64,000 nt of DNA from Neorhizobium huautlense (lineage in GTDB: Bacteria > Pseudomonadota > Alphaproteobacteria > Rhizobiales > Rhizobiaceae), in NCBI RefSeq assembly GCF_002968575.1, contig NZ_PVBM01000001.1, forward strand, positions 248,001-312,000, written 5' to 3'. A program made the translations under genes and the position numbers. Of the stretch, positions 16,394 through 28,889 are shown in pieces. Numbering within the stretch: position 1 is the stretch's first letter; every line of letters starts with the position of its first letter. Under the pieces are notes generated by a model that was not told the origin of the DNA, made no database searches, and saw only the letters and a program-made list of their open reading frames with translations.

Positions 16394-17245
16394 CTATCTG
16401 GCCTTCAACACCGAGACGGCAATCTCGCTGTTGTGAACGTAATCGTTGGCATCCGGCTGGCGCTGCATGAGGAGAATGAAAAGAAGGTCCGTCAGCATCA
16501 GCTGGGCATCGCGGGCCGTGATGGACGACGAACGCACTCTCTCCTCGTCGGCGACGGTGTAAAGCCGGATATTGGCGACCTGCGTGAGCGGCCCGCCGTT
16601 AAGGCCGGTGACCGCCATGACGGTGGCGCCCCGCTCGCGCGCCAGTTCGGCAATCCTCAGTGTCTCGATGCTCGCACCGGAATAAGAAAGCGCGAAAAGG
16701 ACGTCAGCGGTGTTCAGCGTGGAGGCATTCGCCATCTGCACGTGGCTGTCGCTGTCATGCAACACGTTGCGGCCGAGCTTCATCAGCTTATAGGAGAAGT
16801 CGCGGGCAACCAGCGACGAGGCTCCAACGCCAGCCATGTGAATACGGCGTGCGTCGTTTAAAGCCGTCAAAGCCCTCTCGATCTCCTGCTCACCATTGAC
16901 CGCGAGCGTCTGCTGCATGGCGAGCATCTTGCTGCTGATCAGCTTCTGCAGGATCGTGAGATAGCCGTCTCCAACCTCGATCGAACCGTGAATCATGCCG
17001 GGAGGTGCATGCCACTCTTGGGCCTTCGCCTTGCTGACGGCAAGTTTCAGCTCCTGGTAGCCGGCAAAGCCAAGTTTCTGGCTGAATTTGACGACGCTGG
17101 ATTGGCTGCGGCCCGTTTCCGCTGCCAGCGCCGCCGATGACAGCTTCAGCATCTGGTCCGGGTTATCCAGAATGAATTGTCCGATCTGGCGATCCGCTGG
17201 CGCCATATCCTCGAGCTGTGCGTTGATCTTTCGTAGGACTGACAT
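16394..17245 (-). CDS. MurR/RpiR family regulator of the amino-sugar island
   Basis: This 283-residue protein has an N-terminal HTH_6 domain (ADRQIGQFILDNPDQM, then AETGRSQSSVVKFSQKLGF). A SIS sugar-phosphate-binding domain follows (about residues 125-260: IHMAGVGASSLVARDF, LFALSYSGASIETL). The start at 17245 has a GGAAAGG site. It is divergent from murA, and a GGAAT-N5-ATTCC dyad lies in the shared promoter region. The same dyad recurs upstream of murQ, so this protein is the likely ligand-responsive regulator of the island. By analogy with E. coli MurR the ligand may be MurNAc 6-phosphate, but GlcNAc 6-phosphate is also possible. Confidence 0.88.
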   Translation of the reverse strand: MSVLRKINAQLEDMAPADRQIGQFILDNPDQMLKLSSAALAAETGRSQSSVVKFSQKLGFAGYQELKLAVSKAKAQEWHAPPGMIHGSIEVGDGYLTILQKLISSKMLAMQQTLAVNGEQEIERALTALNDARRIHMAGVGASSLVARDFSYKLMKLGRNVLHDSDSHVQMANASTLNTADVLFALSYSGASIETLRIAELARERGATVMAVTGLNGGPLTQVANIRLYTVADEERVRSSSITARDAQLMLTDLLFILLMQRQPDANDYVHNSEIAVSVLKAR

Positions 17246-17298
17246 TGGCCTTTCCGTCGCGTCTCTGTGCCCGCATATCACACTACCAGAGAAAAGTC

Positions 17299-17313
17299 GG
17301 AATAAAAAATTCC
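17299..17313. promoter_or_regulatory. Shared dyad operator GGAAT-N5-ATTCC (copy 1, murR/murA divergent promoter)
   Basis: GGAAT-AAAAA-ATTCC has perfect 5-bp arms. It lies just upstream of a likely murA promoter (TTGACT 17320-17325, TACTTT 17342-17347, 16-bp spacing). An identical arm and spacing arrangement recurs upstream of murQ at 19567-19581. This is the only such pair I found in the island, and both copies are at promoters. Confidence 0.7.
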
Positions 17314-17390
17314 AGAGCGTTGACTCGGAGGACAGGGCGTTTACTTTTATTGGAGGGAAGAGTCCCTAGCACTCCTTCGGCAGTTTCATC

Positions 17391-26797: not shown

Positions 26798-26808
26798 GGA
26801 TCTCGATC

Positions 26809-27924
26809 ATGGAGCCTATCTGGGCCGTCGGCCTGATGACCGGAACCGTTCTGGACGGCAATATCGACGTGGCGCTCCTAAAGACGGACGGCGAAACGAT
26901 CGACACCTTCGGTGCCTACACGCTCGCCCCCTACCCTCCGGAAATCCGCGCTCTGCTCGAAGAGACCCTCCGTCAGGCACGCACCTGGAACTTCGACGGG
27001 CCGGAACCGGCAATCTTCAGGGAGGCGGAGGAAGCTCTGACGCGTGCTCAATCGAAGGCGGTGAAAGACCTCGTCGAGAGCGCCGGCCTCGGCATGGCGG
27101 ATATTGGCATCATCGGCTTTCACGGACAGACGGTGCTGCATCGCGCGCCGACCAGCACGCGGCTGGGCGACACGCGCCAGCTCGGCGATGGAGAGCTCAT
27201 GGCTTCCATCCTCGGCACCAGGGTCGCTTACGACTTCCGCTCTGCCGACGTCCGCGCCGGCGGCCAGGGCGCGCCTCTTGCCGCCGCATATCATGCCGCA
27301 TTGCTGCGCAGCGTAGACACAAGCGGCGAGACGGCCGTGCTCAATCTTGGCGGCGTCGCGAACATCACCTGGTGGGATGGCGGCGACACCGTCATCGCCT
27401 TCGACACCGGTCCGGCAAATGCCCCGCTCAACGATTTCATCAAAGCGCAGGGCCTGGGCGAAATGGATCGCGACGGCGCGCTGGGCGCATCCGGCAGCGT
27501 CGACGAGGAGCGGCTTGCCCGTCTCCTGCAACATCCCTACCTGACAGCCCCTTATCCGAAGTCTCTCGATCGGTTCGACTTTACCGCGGCCATGGCCGAG
27601 GGCCTCGATCCTGCCGATGGCGCTGCAACCCTATCCGCGTTTACGGCGTCCGCGGTGGGCAAGGCTCTCGATCTTTTACCCCGCAGGCCGAGACGGCTGA
27701 TCGTCAGCGGCGGCGGCCGCCACAATCCGACGATCATGAAGATGATTGAGAAGAGAGCGGGCGTTGTTGCCGCCTCTGCAGATCAGTTCGGCTGGCGCGG
27801 CGATGCGGTCGAGGCCGAATGCTTTGCATTTCTCGCCGTCCGCGTTTTGCGCGGCCTTCCGATCAGCTTTCCGACCACGACAGGCGCCCCCCGCCCCTTG
27901 CAGGGCGGCAGGCTGGCCGGGTAA
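26809..27924 (+). CDS. anmK: Anhydro-N-acetylmuramic acid kinase
   Basis: This 371-residue ASKHA enzyme hydrates and phosphorylates 1,6-anhydro-MurNAc to MurNAc 6-phosphate, the MurQ substrate. Motifs are GLMTGTVLDGNID at residues 8-20 (phosphate loop; E. coli has Ser for the second Thr), GFHGQTVLH, NLGGVANIT and FDTGPANAPLND with the catalytic acidic residue. The start follows the hydrolase gene by 11 bases with a TGAGGA site. Together with MurQ it gives a complete anhydro-MurNAc to GlcNAc 6-phosphate route, so the imported substrate is plausibly anhydro-muropeptide from turnover. Confidence 0.95.
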   Translation: MEPIWAVGLMTGTVLDGNIDVALLKTDGETIDTFGAYTLAPYPPEIRALLEETLRQARTWNFDGPEPAIFREAEEALTRAQSKAVKDLVESAGLGMADIGIIGFHGQTVLHRAPTSTRLGDTRQLGDGELMASILGTRVAYDFRSADVRAGGQGAPLAAAYHAALLRSVDTSGETAVLNLGGVANITWWDGGDTVIAFDTGPANAPLNDFIKAQGLGEMDRDGALGASGSVDEERLARLLQHPYLTAPYPKSLDRFDFTAAMAEGLDPADGAATLSAFTASAVGKALDLLPRRPRRLIVSGGGRHNPTIMKMIEKRAGVVAASADQFGWRGDAVEAECFAFLAVRVLRGLPISFPTTTGAPRPLQGGRLAG

Positions 27925-27968
27925 GCCAAGCATAGAATACAATCCTGAGTCGGGAGCACTCGAACAAC

Positions 27969-28889
27969 ATGCAGAAAAGAGTGTCTTCGGCCCTTGCCGG
28001 CAATGCGGTGCTGCTCGGCGTCCTGCTCATGCTGCTCGGCGATTTCATGTTCTCGCTGAACGATGCCATGGGCAAATGGCTGGTTGCGAGTTTTTCCGTC
28101 GGCCAGGTTCTGGTCATCCGCTCGCTCGGCGCCTTCTTCGTCCTCAGCCCGATGATCGCCCGCCAGCCGATTTCAGCACTCTACAAGGTCGAGCGGCCGG
28201 CGCTGCAGATCATGCGCGTCCTTTTCGCCACCGGAGACCTCGCCCTTTTCTACGCAGCCGTCATCTACCTGCCGCTCGCCGACGTGATGACCTTTTATAT
28301 GGCCGGCCCGATCTACGTTGCCGCTCTTTCTCATTTTCTGCTCGGAGAGCGGATCGGATGGCGGCGCTGGCTTGCGGTCCTGATCGGTTTTGCCGGCGTG
28401 GTGATCGCGCTGCGGCCCTCGTCCGAAATGCTGGCATGGCCATCCATCTTCGGGTTGATCGGTAGCTTCTCGTTCGCCCTGACGCTGGTGCTGAACCGCA
28501 GGCTGCGTGCCACCTCCGATGCTACACTGGTGACCTGGCAGACGGTGGCGGGCCTCATCGCCGGGATTTTTCTCAGCGTCGGCAACTGGAGCCCGTTCAA
28601 CCTGGCCGAACTGCTGGCGCTGCTCCTGCTGGGTATCGTGGCGTGCATCGCGCACCTGCTCATCACCCGCTCGCTGAAGCTTGCCCCGGCGTCCGTCCTT
28701 GCGCCGCTGCAATATACGCTCCTGCTATGGGCGGTCATTCTCGGCTGGGTCTTCTTCGGCGACCTGCCGGACACCCAGACCTGGATAGGTGCCGGCATCA
28801 TCGTTTTTGCGGGCCTGTTCATCTTTCACCGCGGCAACGTCAAACAGGACACCGAAGCGGTCGTTCCGACGGATTCTAGCCATGGCTAG
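27969..28889 (+). CDS. DMT-family (EamA) permease
   Basis: This 306-residue inner-membrane protein has ten hydrophobic helices in two EamA repeats (about residues 15-145 and 160-290). DFMFSLNDAMGKWLVASF opens the first repeat, and LAPASVLAPLQYTLLLWAV is a typical second-half motif. It exports or imports an unknown small metabolite. It is co-oriented with and 44 bases behind anmK, so it may belong to the amino-sugar operon. This family is too diverse to infer a substrate. Confidence 0.85.
   Translation: MQKRVSSALAGNAVLLGVLLMLLGDFMFSLNDAMGKWLVASFSVGQVLVIRSLGAFFVLSPMIARQPISALYKVERPALQIMRVLFATGDLALFYAAVIYLPLADVMTFYMAGPIYVAALSHFLLGERIGWRRWLAVLIGFAGVVIALRPSSEMLAWPSIFGLIGSFSFALTLVLNRRLRATSDATLVTWQTVAGLIAGIFLSVGNWSPFNLAELLALLLLGIVACIAHLLITRSLKLAPASVLAPLQYTLLLWAVILGWVFFGDLPDTQTWIGAGIIVFAGLFIFHRGNVKQDTEAVVPTDSSHG

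Follow-up and report, generated by a model that had tools for sequence, protein, structure and literature searches.

A second gene for UDP-N-acetylglucosamine (UDP-GlcNAc) enolpyruvyltransferase, here called murA2, lies among genes predicted to serve N-acetylmuramic acid (MurNAc) catabolism on a 64,000-nucleotide stretch of DNA from Neorhizobium huautlense (the window; positions 248,001 to 312,000 of contig NZ_PVBM01000001.1). The pair murA2-nagK and the set murQ-importer-hydrolase-anmK are both marked by a palindrome and stand beside a divergent gene for a MurR-family regulator. Together they may form one switch, in which the uptake and breakdown of muropeptides is accompanied by a co-induced MurA2 that would refill the drained pool of UDP-MurNAc. 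Judging from sequence comparison, we give this reading a probability of about 0.45, and within it the regulatory wiring of murA2-nagK with murQ appears well supported. The arrangement would be a new one, in which a regulon for MurNAc catabolism contains its own unit for wall synthesis; known systems share parts of it, and none found includes MurA. Recycling and de novo synthesis of peptidoglycan are usually drawn as separate pathways which meet at UDP-MurNAc. A conserved second MurA and kinase sharing a palindrome with MurQ suggests that the two pathways are hard-wired together in some Alphaproteobacteria; the carriers are scattered among root-nodule bacteria and related species.

The 15-bp palindrome, GGAATWWWWWATTCC, came from comparing the gaps between the regulator gene, murR, and murA2 in related loci. 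It occurs exactly twice in the 5.73-Mb assembly (146 contigs), at 17299-17313 and 19567-19581 of the window, and both copies are in this locus. A reversed-pattern control gave 0 matches in all 13 genomes scanned, and a scan of the window with one mismatch allowed gave two matches against 0.01 expected. The related loci are the best 80 of at least 566 matching loci, and in 75 of the 80 the palindrome is found upstream of murA2 (64 perfect, 11 with one mismatch). It is also found upstream of murQ in 72/72 loci, a count that takes in loci whose murQ is at least 55% identical (60 perfect, nine with one mismatch and three with two). By comparison, only 3/3065 other 400-base tiles of the same loci contain a site with two or fewer mismatches. 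The five loci without the murA2 palindrome are the same five that have no match to murR. Two loci with neither (L055 and L067) yet keep a one-mismatch site before murQ, and perhaps have their murR elsewhere in the genome.

Since each has its own copy of the palindrome, murA2-nagK and the genes from murQ onward are probably two transcription units, and within about 10 bases 3′ of each copy in the window there is a TTGACT or TTGACA. Both gene sets carry the same palindrome, therefore breakdown and fresh synthesis are likely to be switched on together. In a Nitratireductor genome (G185) the murR / murA2-kinase part is about 23 kb from the murQ-importer part, and both split units keep the palindrome (perfect in L164, one mismatch in L165); G268 is split likewise, with about 20 kb between the units. 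The preliminary description had treated these genes as one locus, which holds for the conserved neighbourhood but not for a single unit, as murA2 and murQ each own a palindrome.

Throughout Rhizobiaceae and relatives the genes are found again in one core order, murR / murA2-nagK / murQ-binding protein-permeases-fused ATPase-hydrolase-anmK. Full flanks are available for 69 of the 80 loci, and at a threshold of at least 55% identity murA2 and the kinase are present in all 69, murR in 66, murQ and the binding protein in 65 each, the permeases in 65 and 65, the ATPase in 65, the hydrolase in 64 and anmK in 62; L007 and L024 have no anmK within the stretch examined. With a conserved gene set and an operator-like palindrome, this survey speaks strongly against the idea that the neighbours of murA2 are accidental. 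In evenly drawn genome samples, MurA2-type genes were found in 6/149 genomes of the order (identity at least 67%), 9/151 of the family (E ≤ 1e-160), 3/337 of the class (the window genome, G402 and G397; 68-100% identity) and 7/397 of the phylum (E ≤ 1e-148), the last all belonging to the window's family. A further 15 genomes of the class sample pass a loose E-value at 56-61% identity, and in these neither a kinase gene nor murQ is seen in the nearest 1.5 kb or so. Distribution is patchy even within genera, as g2 and g3 of the phylum sample hold both carriers and non-carriers, and Rhizobium tropici CIAT 899 carries the locus on a megaplasmid, pRtrCIAT899c, where neither palindrome has a mismatch.

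The murA2 product scores 527.2 bits against TIGR01072, above the equivalog cut-off of 392.7. Two murA genes in the assembly exceed this cut-off, one at G000:C69 with 552.6 bits and murA2 itself with 526.8 bits, so that murA2 is not the only murA of its genome; a third match, at 21.9 bits, is below the cut-off and sits in an open reading frame of L172 that resembles AroA by eye. MurA2 is 54.5% identical to the canonical MurA1 of the same genome. In a tree of 76 proteins, the 35 MurA2 form one clade with 100/100 support and a long stem (0.48), and the window genome's MurA1 falls among MurA1 of the order. The tree and the identity together rule out a recent duplicate of MurA1. Ten positions (Lys22, Asn23, Arg91, Cys115, Arg120, Asp305, Arg331, Asp369, Arg371 and Arg397, E. 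coli numbering), which we take to be catalytic or to bind phosphoenolpyruvate or UDP-GlcNAc, are identical in 90/90 MurA2. Pro121 is kept in 90/90 and Asp123 in 89/90, both presumably on the uracil side. Replacement of the cysteine gives a known kind of fosfomycin-resistant MurA. MurA2 is not of this kind, since Cys115, which we take to be the residue that fosfomycin modifies, is retained throughout; the earlier suggestion of a second target for fosfomycin is thereby addressed, but only weakly.

Two side observations concern other MurA proteins. In three genomes of the order (G029, G097 and G121; locus L173), the sole listed MurA-type matches are 38-39% identical to the query, compared with 50-58% for a typical MurA1, and in these genomes the usual enzyme may have given way to a divergent MurA. 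Among the plasmid matches (H17-H30) there are murA genes of about 53% identity, plasmid-borne or on mislabelled replicons, from Ruegeria, Tritonibacter, Sinorhizobium and Neorhizobium galegae.

The partner of murA2 is a kinase of the BadF family (PF01869), which resembles the solved structures 1zc6 (E 1.7e-45) and 8zo3, a MurNAc/GlcNAc kinase (E 2.1e-22). It scores 264 bits against NagK_SO3507, below the cut-off of 370, and the alignment is compatible with either GlcNAc or MurNAc as substrate. The kinase gene adjoins murA2 in 78/80 loci, the remaining two ending at a contig end, and the genes overlap by ATGA or GTGA in 73/80.

Table 1. Window coordinates of the genes and operator-like sites of the locus
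Feature	Position	Strand	Remarks
murR, RpiR-family regulator (HTH_6 + SIS), divergent from murA2	16394..17281	-	ATG start probably 17245
Operator-like palindrome 1, GGAATAAAAAATTCC, upstream of murA2 and near murR start	17299..17313	n/a	
murA2, second UDP-GlcNAc enolpyruvyltransferase gene	17391..18647	+	
nagK/murK-type amino-sugar kinase, BadF family	18644..19528	+	ATGA overlap with murA2 stop
Operator-like palindrome 2, GGAATATTATATTCC, upstream of murQ	19567..19581	n/a	
murQ, MurNAc-6-phosphate etherase	19678..20601	+	TIGR00274 419 bits (cut-off 302)
Family-5 solute-binding protein, peptide-type ATP-binding cassette (ABC) importer	20677..22191	+	N-terminus signal-peptide-like (by eye)
ABC permease 1, DppB/OppB type	22225..23187	+	
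ABC permease 2, DppC/OppC type	23187..24020	+	
Fused double ABC ATPase, OppD-OppF type	24017..25762	+	
Beta-lactamase-fold serine hydrolase	25772..26797	+	PF00144 108.6 bits; no obvious signal peptide (by eye)
anmK, anhydro-MurNAc kinase	26809..27924	+	NF007141 486.4 bits (cut-off 352)

Every gene named in the preliminary description proved to be an open reading frame in its assigned place with a match to the expected family (Table 1). Starts at 18644 (nagK), 20677 (binding protein), 24017 (ATPase) and 26809 (anmK) are preferred over those of the longest open reading frames. The regulator scores 75.8 bits for HTH_6, 77.4 bits for SIS and 181.6 bits for the MurR model NF012026, whose cut-off of 408 is not reached; because it is an RpiR-family protein below the curated cut-off, MurR is used as a working name. 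The murQ product has both conserved Glu motifs, DASECPPT and EGAED, which are presumably catalytic. The hydrolase matches the PBP4B/YfeW model weakly (59.7 bits, cut-off 385), and the locus permease is not of the YejB type (119 bits, cut-off of 445 not reached). Among the locus proteins scanned with profile libraries there was no NagA match and no NagB match above cut-off. An EamA-type drug/metabolite transporter (DMT) permease gene is located after anmK and had been counted as part of the locus. It is syntenic in 8/69 full-flank loci and therefore falls outside the gene set, as do the 2-keto-3-deoxy-6-phosphogluconate (KDPG)-aldolase-type genes and the upstream methyltransferase gene (8/69 each).

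Contrary to the preliminary description, the locus is also not self-contained. Glycoside hydrolase family 3 (GH3; NagZ-type) genes, an AmgK-MurU pair and a YejB above its cut-off (G000:C60) are found elsewhere in the window genome. A MurU-like gene is next to an AmgK-like gene in 8/8 MurA2 genomes tested, which rules out that MurA2 replaces an absent MurU route. None of the eight MurU scores reaches the curated cut-offs; the MurU of the window genome was missed at E ≤ 1e-40 and found by a looser search, and the AmgK-like protein of this genome is fused to TsaE. No AmpG above cut-off was found in the 8 genomes searched. MurQ above cut-off is present in 13/151 family genomes, comprising all 9 with MurA2 and 4/142 of the others (G194, G253, G290 and G214), a co-occurrence with Fisher p of 8e-12, uncorrected for shared ancestry and linkage. 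Some relative of MurQ at E ≤ 1e-30 is present in 78/151, mostly as a weaker second family. The window genome has an example in L170 (4875-14199, on G000:C56), where a weaker MurQ relative is accompanied by a NagK-type kinase, SIS and GntR-like proteins and a sugar ABC importer; this brings the genome's total to two MurQ-type proteins and at least two of the NagK type.

Remote relatives of the locus have a MurA2-kinase pair (about 61-73% identical) beside a diverged MurQ (38-44%) that retains both conserved Glu motifs. In L166, L081, L082 and L193 the pair (about 65-73%) is found with MurQ at 38-42%, AnmK at 44-46% and transporter genes at 31-50%, and a GntR regulator is present in L081, L082 and L166. 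L081 also encodes a NagA-like protein (TIGR00221 268.6 bits, over cut-off) and a NagB-II-like protein (below cut-off). In L167 and L168 an SIS protein accompanies murA2-kinase-murQ. Upstream in both there is a NamZ-type exo-muramidase, a further muropeptide-degrading link (18017-19219 of L167, Pfam-confirmed, and 18002-19204 of L168). Where the GC content was low or the locus odd (L163 of G214, part of L167), script gene calls were unreliable and no claim was based on them.

How the parts might work together can be sketched from these data. E. coli MurR responds to MurNAc-6-phosphate (MurNAc-6-P), and by analogy the regulator here would bind both palindromes and respond to the same ligand. Release of both units would start MurNAc catabolism. 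The ABC importer would bring in muropeptides or muramyl sugars. MurNAc-6-P and/or GlcNAc-6-phosphate (GlcNAc-6-P) would be produced by AnmK and the kinase, and MurQ would convert the former sugar phosphate to the latter. MurQ would thereby deprive the MupP-AmgK-MurU shortcut of MurNAc-6-P, from which that route normally makes new UDP-MurNAc with no need for MurA. To make up for this, MurA2 would boost de novo synthesis from UDP-GlcNAc at its committed step, drawing in part on salvaged GlcNAc-6-P. Re-supply of precursor by MurA2, already raised in the preliminary description, is the reading we favour, and we propose this drain and refill as the simplest mechanism that uses all parts, with ligand, fluxes and enzyme activities that we infer from gene content.

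Two published observations bear on this proposal (papers given by PMC number are cited from excerpts). Among Beta- and Gammaproteobacteria, a species tends to have one of the two, MurQ or AmgK-MurU, and in Pseudomonas putida with the anabolic route blocked UDP-MurNAc falls 6-fold and cells "are not able to compensate" through an increase in de novo synthesis (PMC5371407). A hard-wired MurA2 would explain how one genome could run both MurNAc routes. It may be, and we offer this more tentatively, that a MurNAc-6-P-sensing regulator derepresses MurQ and the MurA2-kinase unit jointly, letting owners of MurU and MurQ stop recycling MurNAc and burn it instead, with no UDP-MurNAc starvation of the wall. 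If true, such bacteria would come equipped with the kind of compensation that P. putida reportedly lacks. The upkeep of UDP-MurNAc while MurNAc is burned becomes directly testable, and the coupling would also matter for the way in which muropeptide supply affects fosfomycin sensitivity.

Several observations weigh against such a coupling. A perfect palindrome is present in 10/13 genomes and missing from G195, G290 and G194, and G114 has a third perfect copy far from the locus (G114:C1:6185850-6185864, L208). No sigma-70-type promoter was found by strict consensus scan of 17200-19750. G253 and G290 have a murR / murQ-importer-hydrolase-anmK unit without murA2 or kinase, in which a site before murQ is kept (perfect in L161, two one-mismatch sites in L160), and at least G253 and G194 have MurQ above cut-off and a MurU-like gene with no MurA2. 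Because of these genomes, refill would be conditional at most. The palindrome is also absent from the remote loci L080-L082, L166-L168, L192 and L193, so that the shared switch is limited to the Rhizobiaceae-type locus. Finally, MurA2 differs from MurA1 in the ligand pocket at Lys160-Val161, which could alter substrate or inhibitor binding. Ser is found at the first position in 87/90 MurA2, where MurA1 itself has Lys in 24/40, and Pro at the second in 90/90. Twelve further positions split MurA2 from MurA1 at 85% or more, among them Leu221, which is Trp in MurA2.

The gene content and shared palindrome would also fit if the locus served nutrient growth, an explanation that we consider unlikely but a serious contender. 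The locus would then feed on foreign muropeptides, and MurA2 and the kinase would simply steer some salvaged GlcNAc-6-P into wall synthesis by the cell itself during such growth, with no special need to make up for a drained route. Support comes from the remote loci, where NagA and the NagB-II-like protein offer a route to central metabolism and L167 has its NamZ-type enzyme, and from the patchy, accessory distribution with the megaplasmid location in R. tropici CIAT 899. YejB is present in the window genome as well, therefore the locus importer is an addition to the YejB system. However, wall synthesis on other carbon sources needs no spare MurA, and the same genome has its canonical MurA1.

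Slightly less probable again is that MurA2 is an inhibitor-tolerant isozyme, less feedback-inhibited by UDP-MurNAc or less sensitive to fosfomycin-like compounds, which would be induced when wall damage frees muropeptides. Its retained Cys115 (90/90) and the variability of position 160 in MurA1 too argue otherwise, whereas the clade-specific Ser-Pro in place of Lys160-Val161 and the change of Leu221 to Trp are what such an isozyme might display. A docking table lists Lys160 among the hydrogen bonds of the native MurA ligand (PMC11628175), docking tables being all that the excerpted literature offered on a MurA feedback site, and muropeptide uptake matters for fosfomycin resistance in Agrobacterium tumefaciens (PMC9790009). 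Different chemistry, in which MurA2 transfers enolpyruvate to another amino-sugar substrate of the muropeptide pathway, is improbable. It would account for the sugar kinase beside murA2 in 78/80 loci and for the changed residues 160-161, but MurA2 is 54.5% identical to MurA1, scores above the MurA equivalog cut-off and has every catalytic residue checked intact, with Pro121 and Asp123 kept in 90 and 89 of 90. That murA2 is a hitch-hiking duplicate, an accidental neighbour of a catabolic operon, would suit the two genomes that keep the rest of the locus without murA2-nagK, but is very hard to credit given the shared palindromes, a gene set conserved throughout the group, the same linkage in remote loci that diverged independently, and a long-standing separate clade.

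The MurNAc catabolic regulon of E. coli consists of MurR and murQ-murP-yfeW. The locus shares with it MurQ, a beta-lactamase-fold hydrolase (weakly matched to YfeW/PBP4B) and an RpiR-family regulator whose gene is divergent from the catabolic ones. It differs in its ABC importer, where E. coli uses the phosphotransferase system protein MurP, in the inclusion of AnmK, in its two palindromes and two units, and in the added MurA and kinase unit; we know of no MurA in the E. coli regulon. The YejBEF-YepA system of A. tumefaciens likewise combines an ABC transporter and a separate binding protein for muropeptides, in Rhizobiales without AmpG (PMC9790009). That system is a housekeeping one, whereas here Opp/Dpp/Gsi-like permeases and fused ATPases sit with murQ-anmK; the excerpt of the paper shows no linked MurA and does not mention "murQ" (PMC9790009).

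Anabolic recycling by AmgK-MurU (with MupP) involves the same intermediates, anhydro-MurNAc and MurNAc-6-P, but bypasses MurA, whereas here MurQ would send MurNAc-6-P the other way and a MurA is added (PMC5371407, PMC13046382). The murTKQ genes of Tannerella forsythia also provide a transporter, sugar kinase and MurQ for MurNAc use; they form one operon, without MurA, in an organism without MurNAc synthesis (PMC10465942). Two active-type MurA per genome are known from the MurAA/MurAB (MurZ) pairs of Firmicutes, for which the excerpt states no tie to MurNAc catabolism (PMC12077105); the second MurA described here is Gram-negative, murQ-linked and palindrome-marked. In the open-access literature we found no description of a MurA in a murQ-anmK locus of Rhizobiales, which is not proof of absence.

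Elsewhere in the window, an AmpG-like permease of the major facilitator superfamily (3608-4906, + strand; TIGR00901 126.7 bits, cut-off 350) is encoded immediately after a gene whose product resembles a TonB receptor by eye (1590-3677, + strand). A role as muropeptide importer is not supported, given its score, its neighbour and its absence from G191 of the same genus. The two genes possibly serve siderophore uptake instead.

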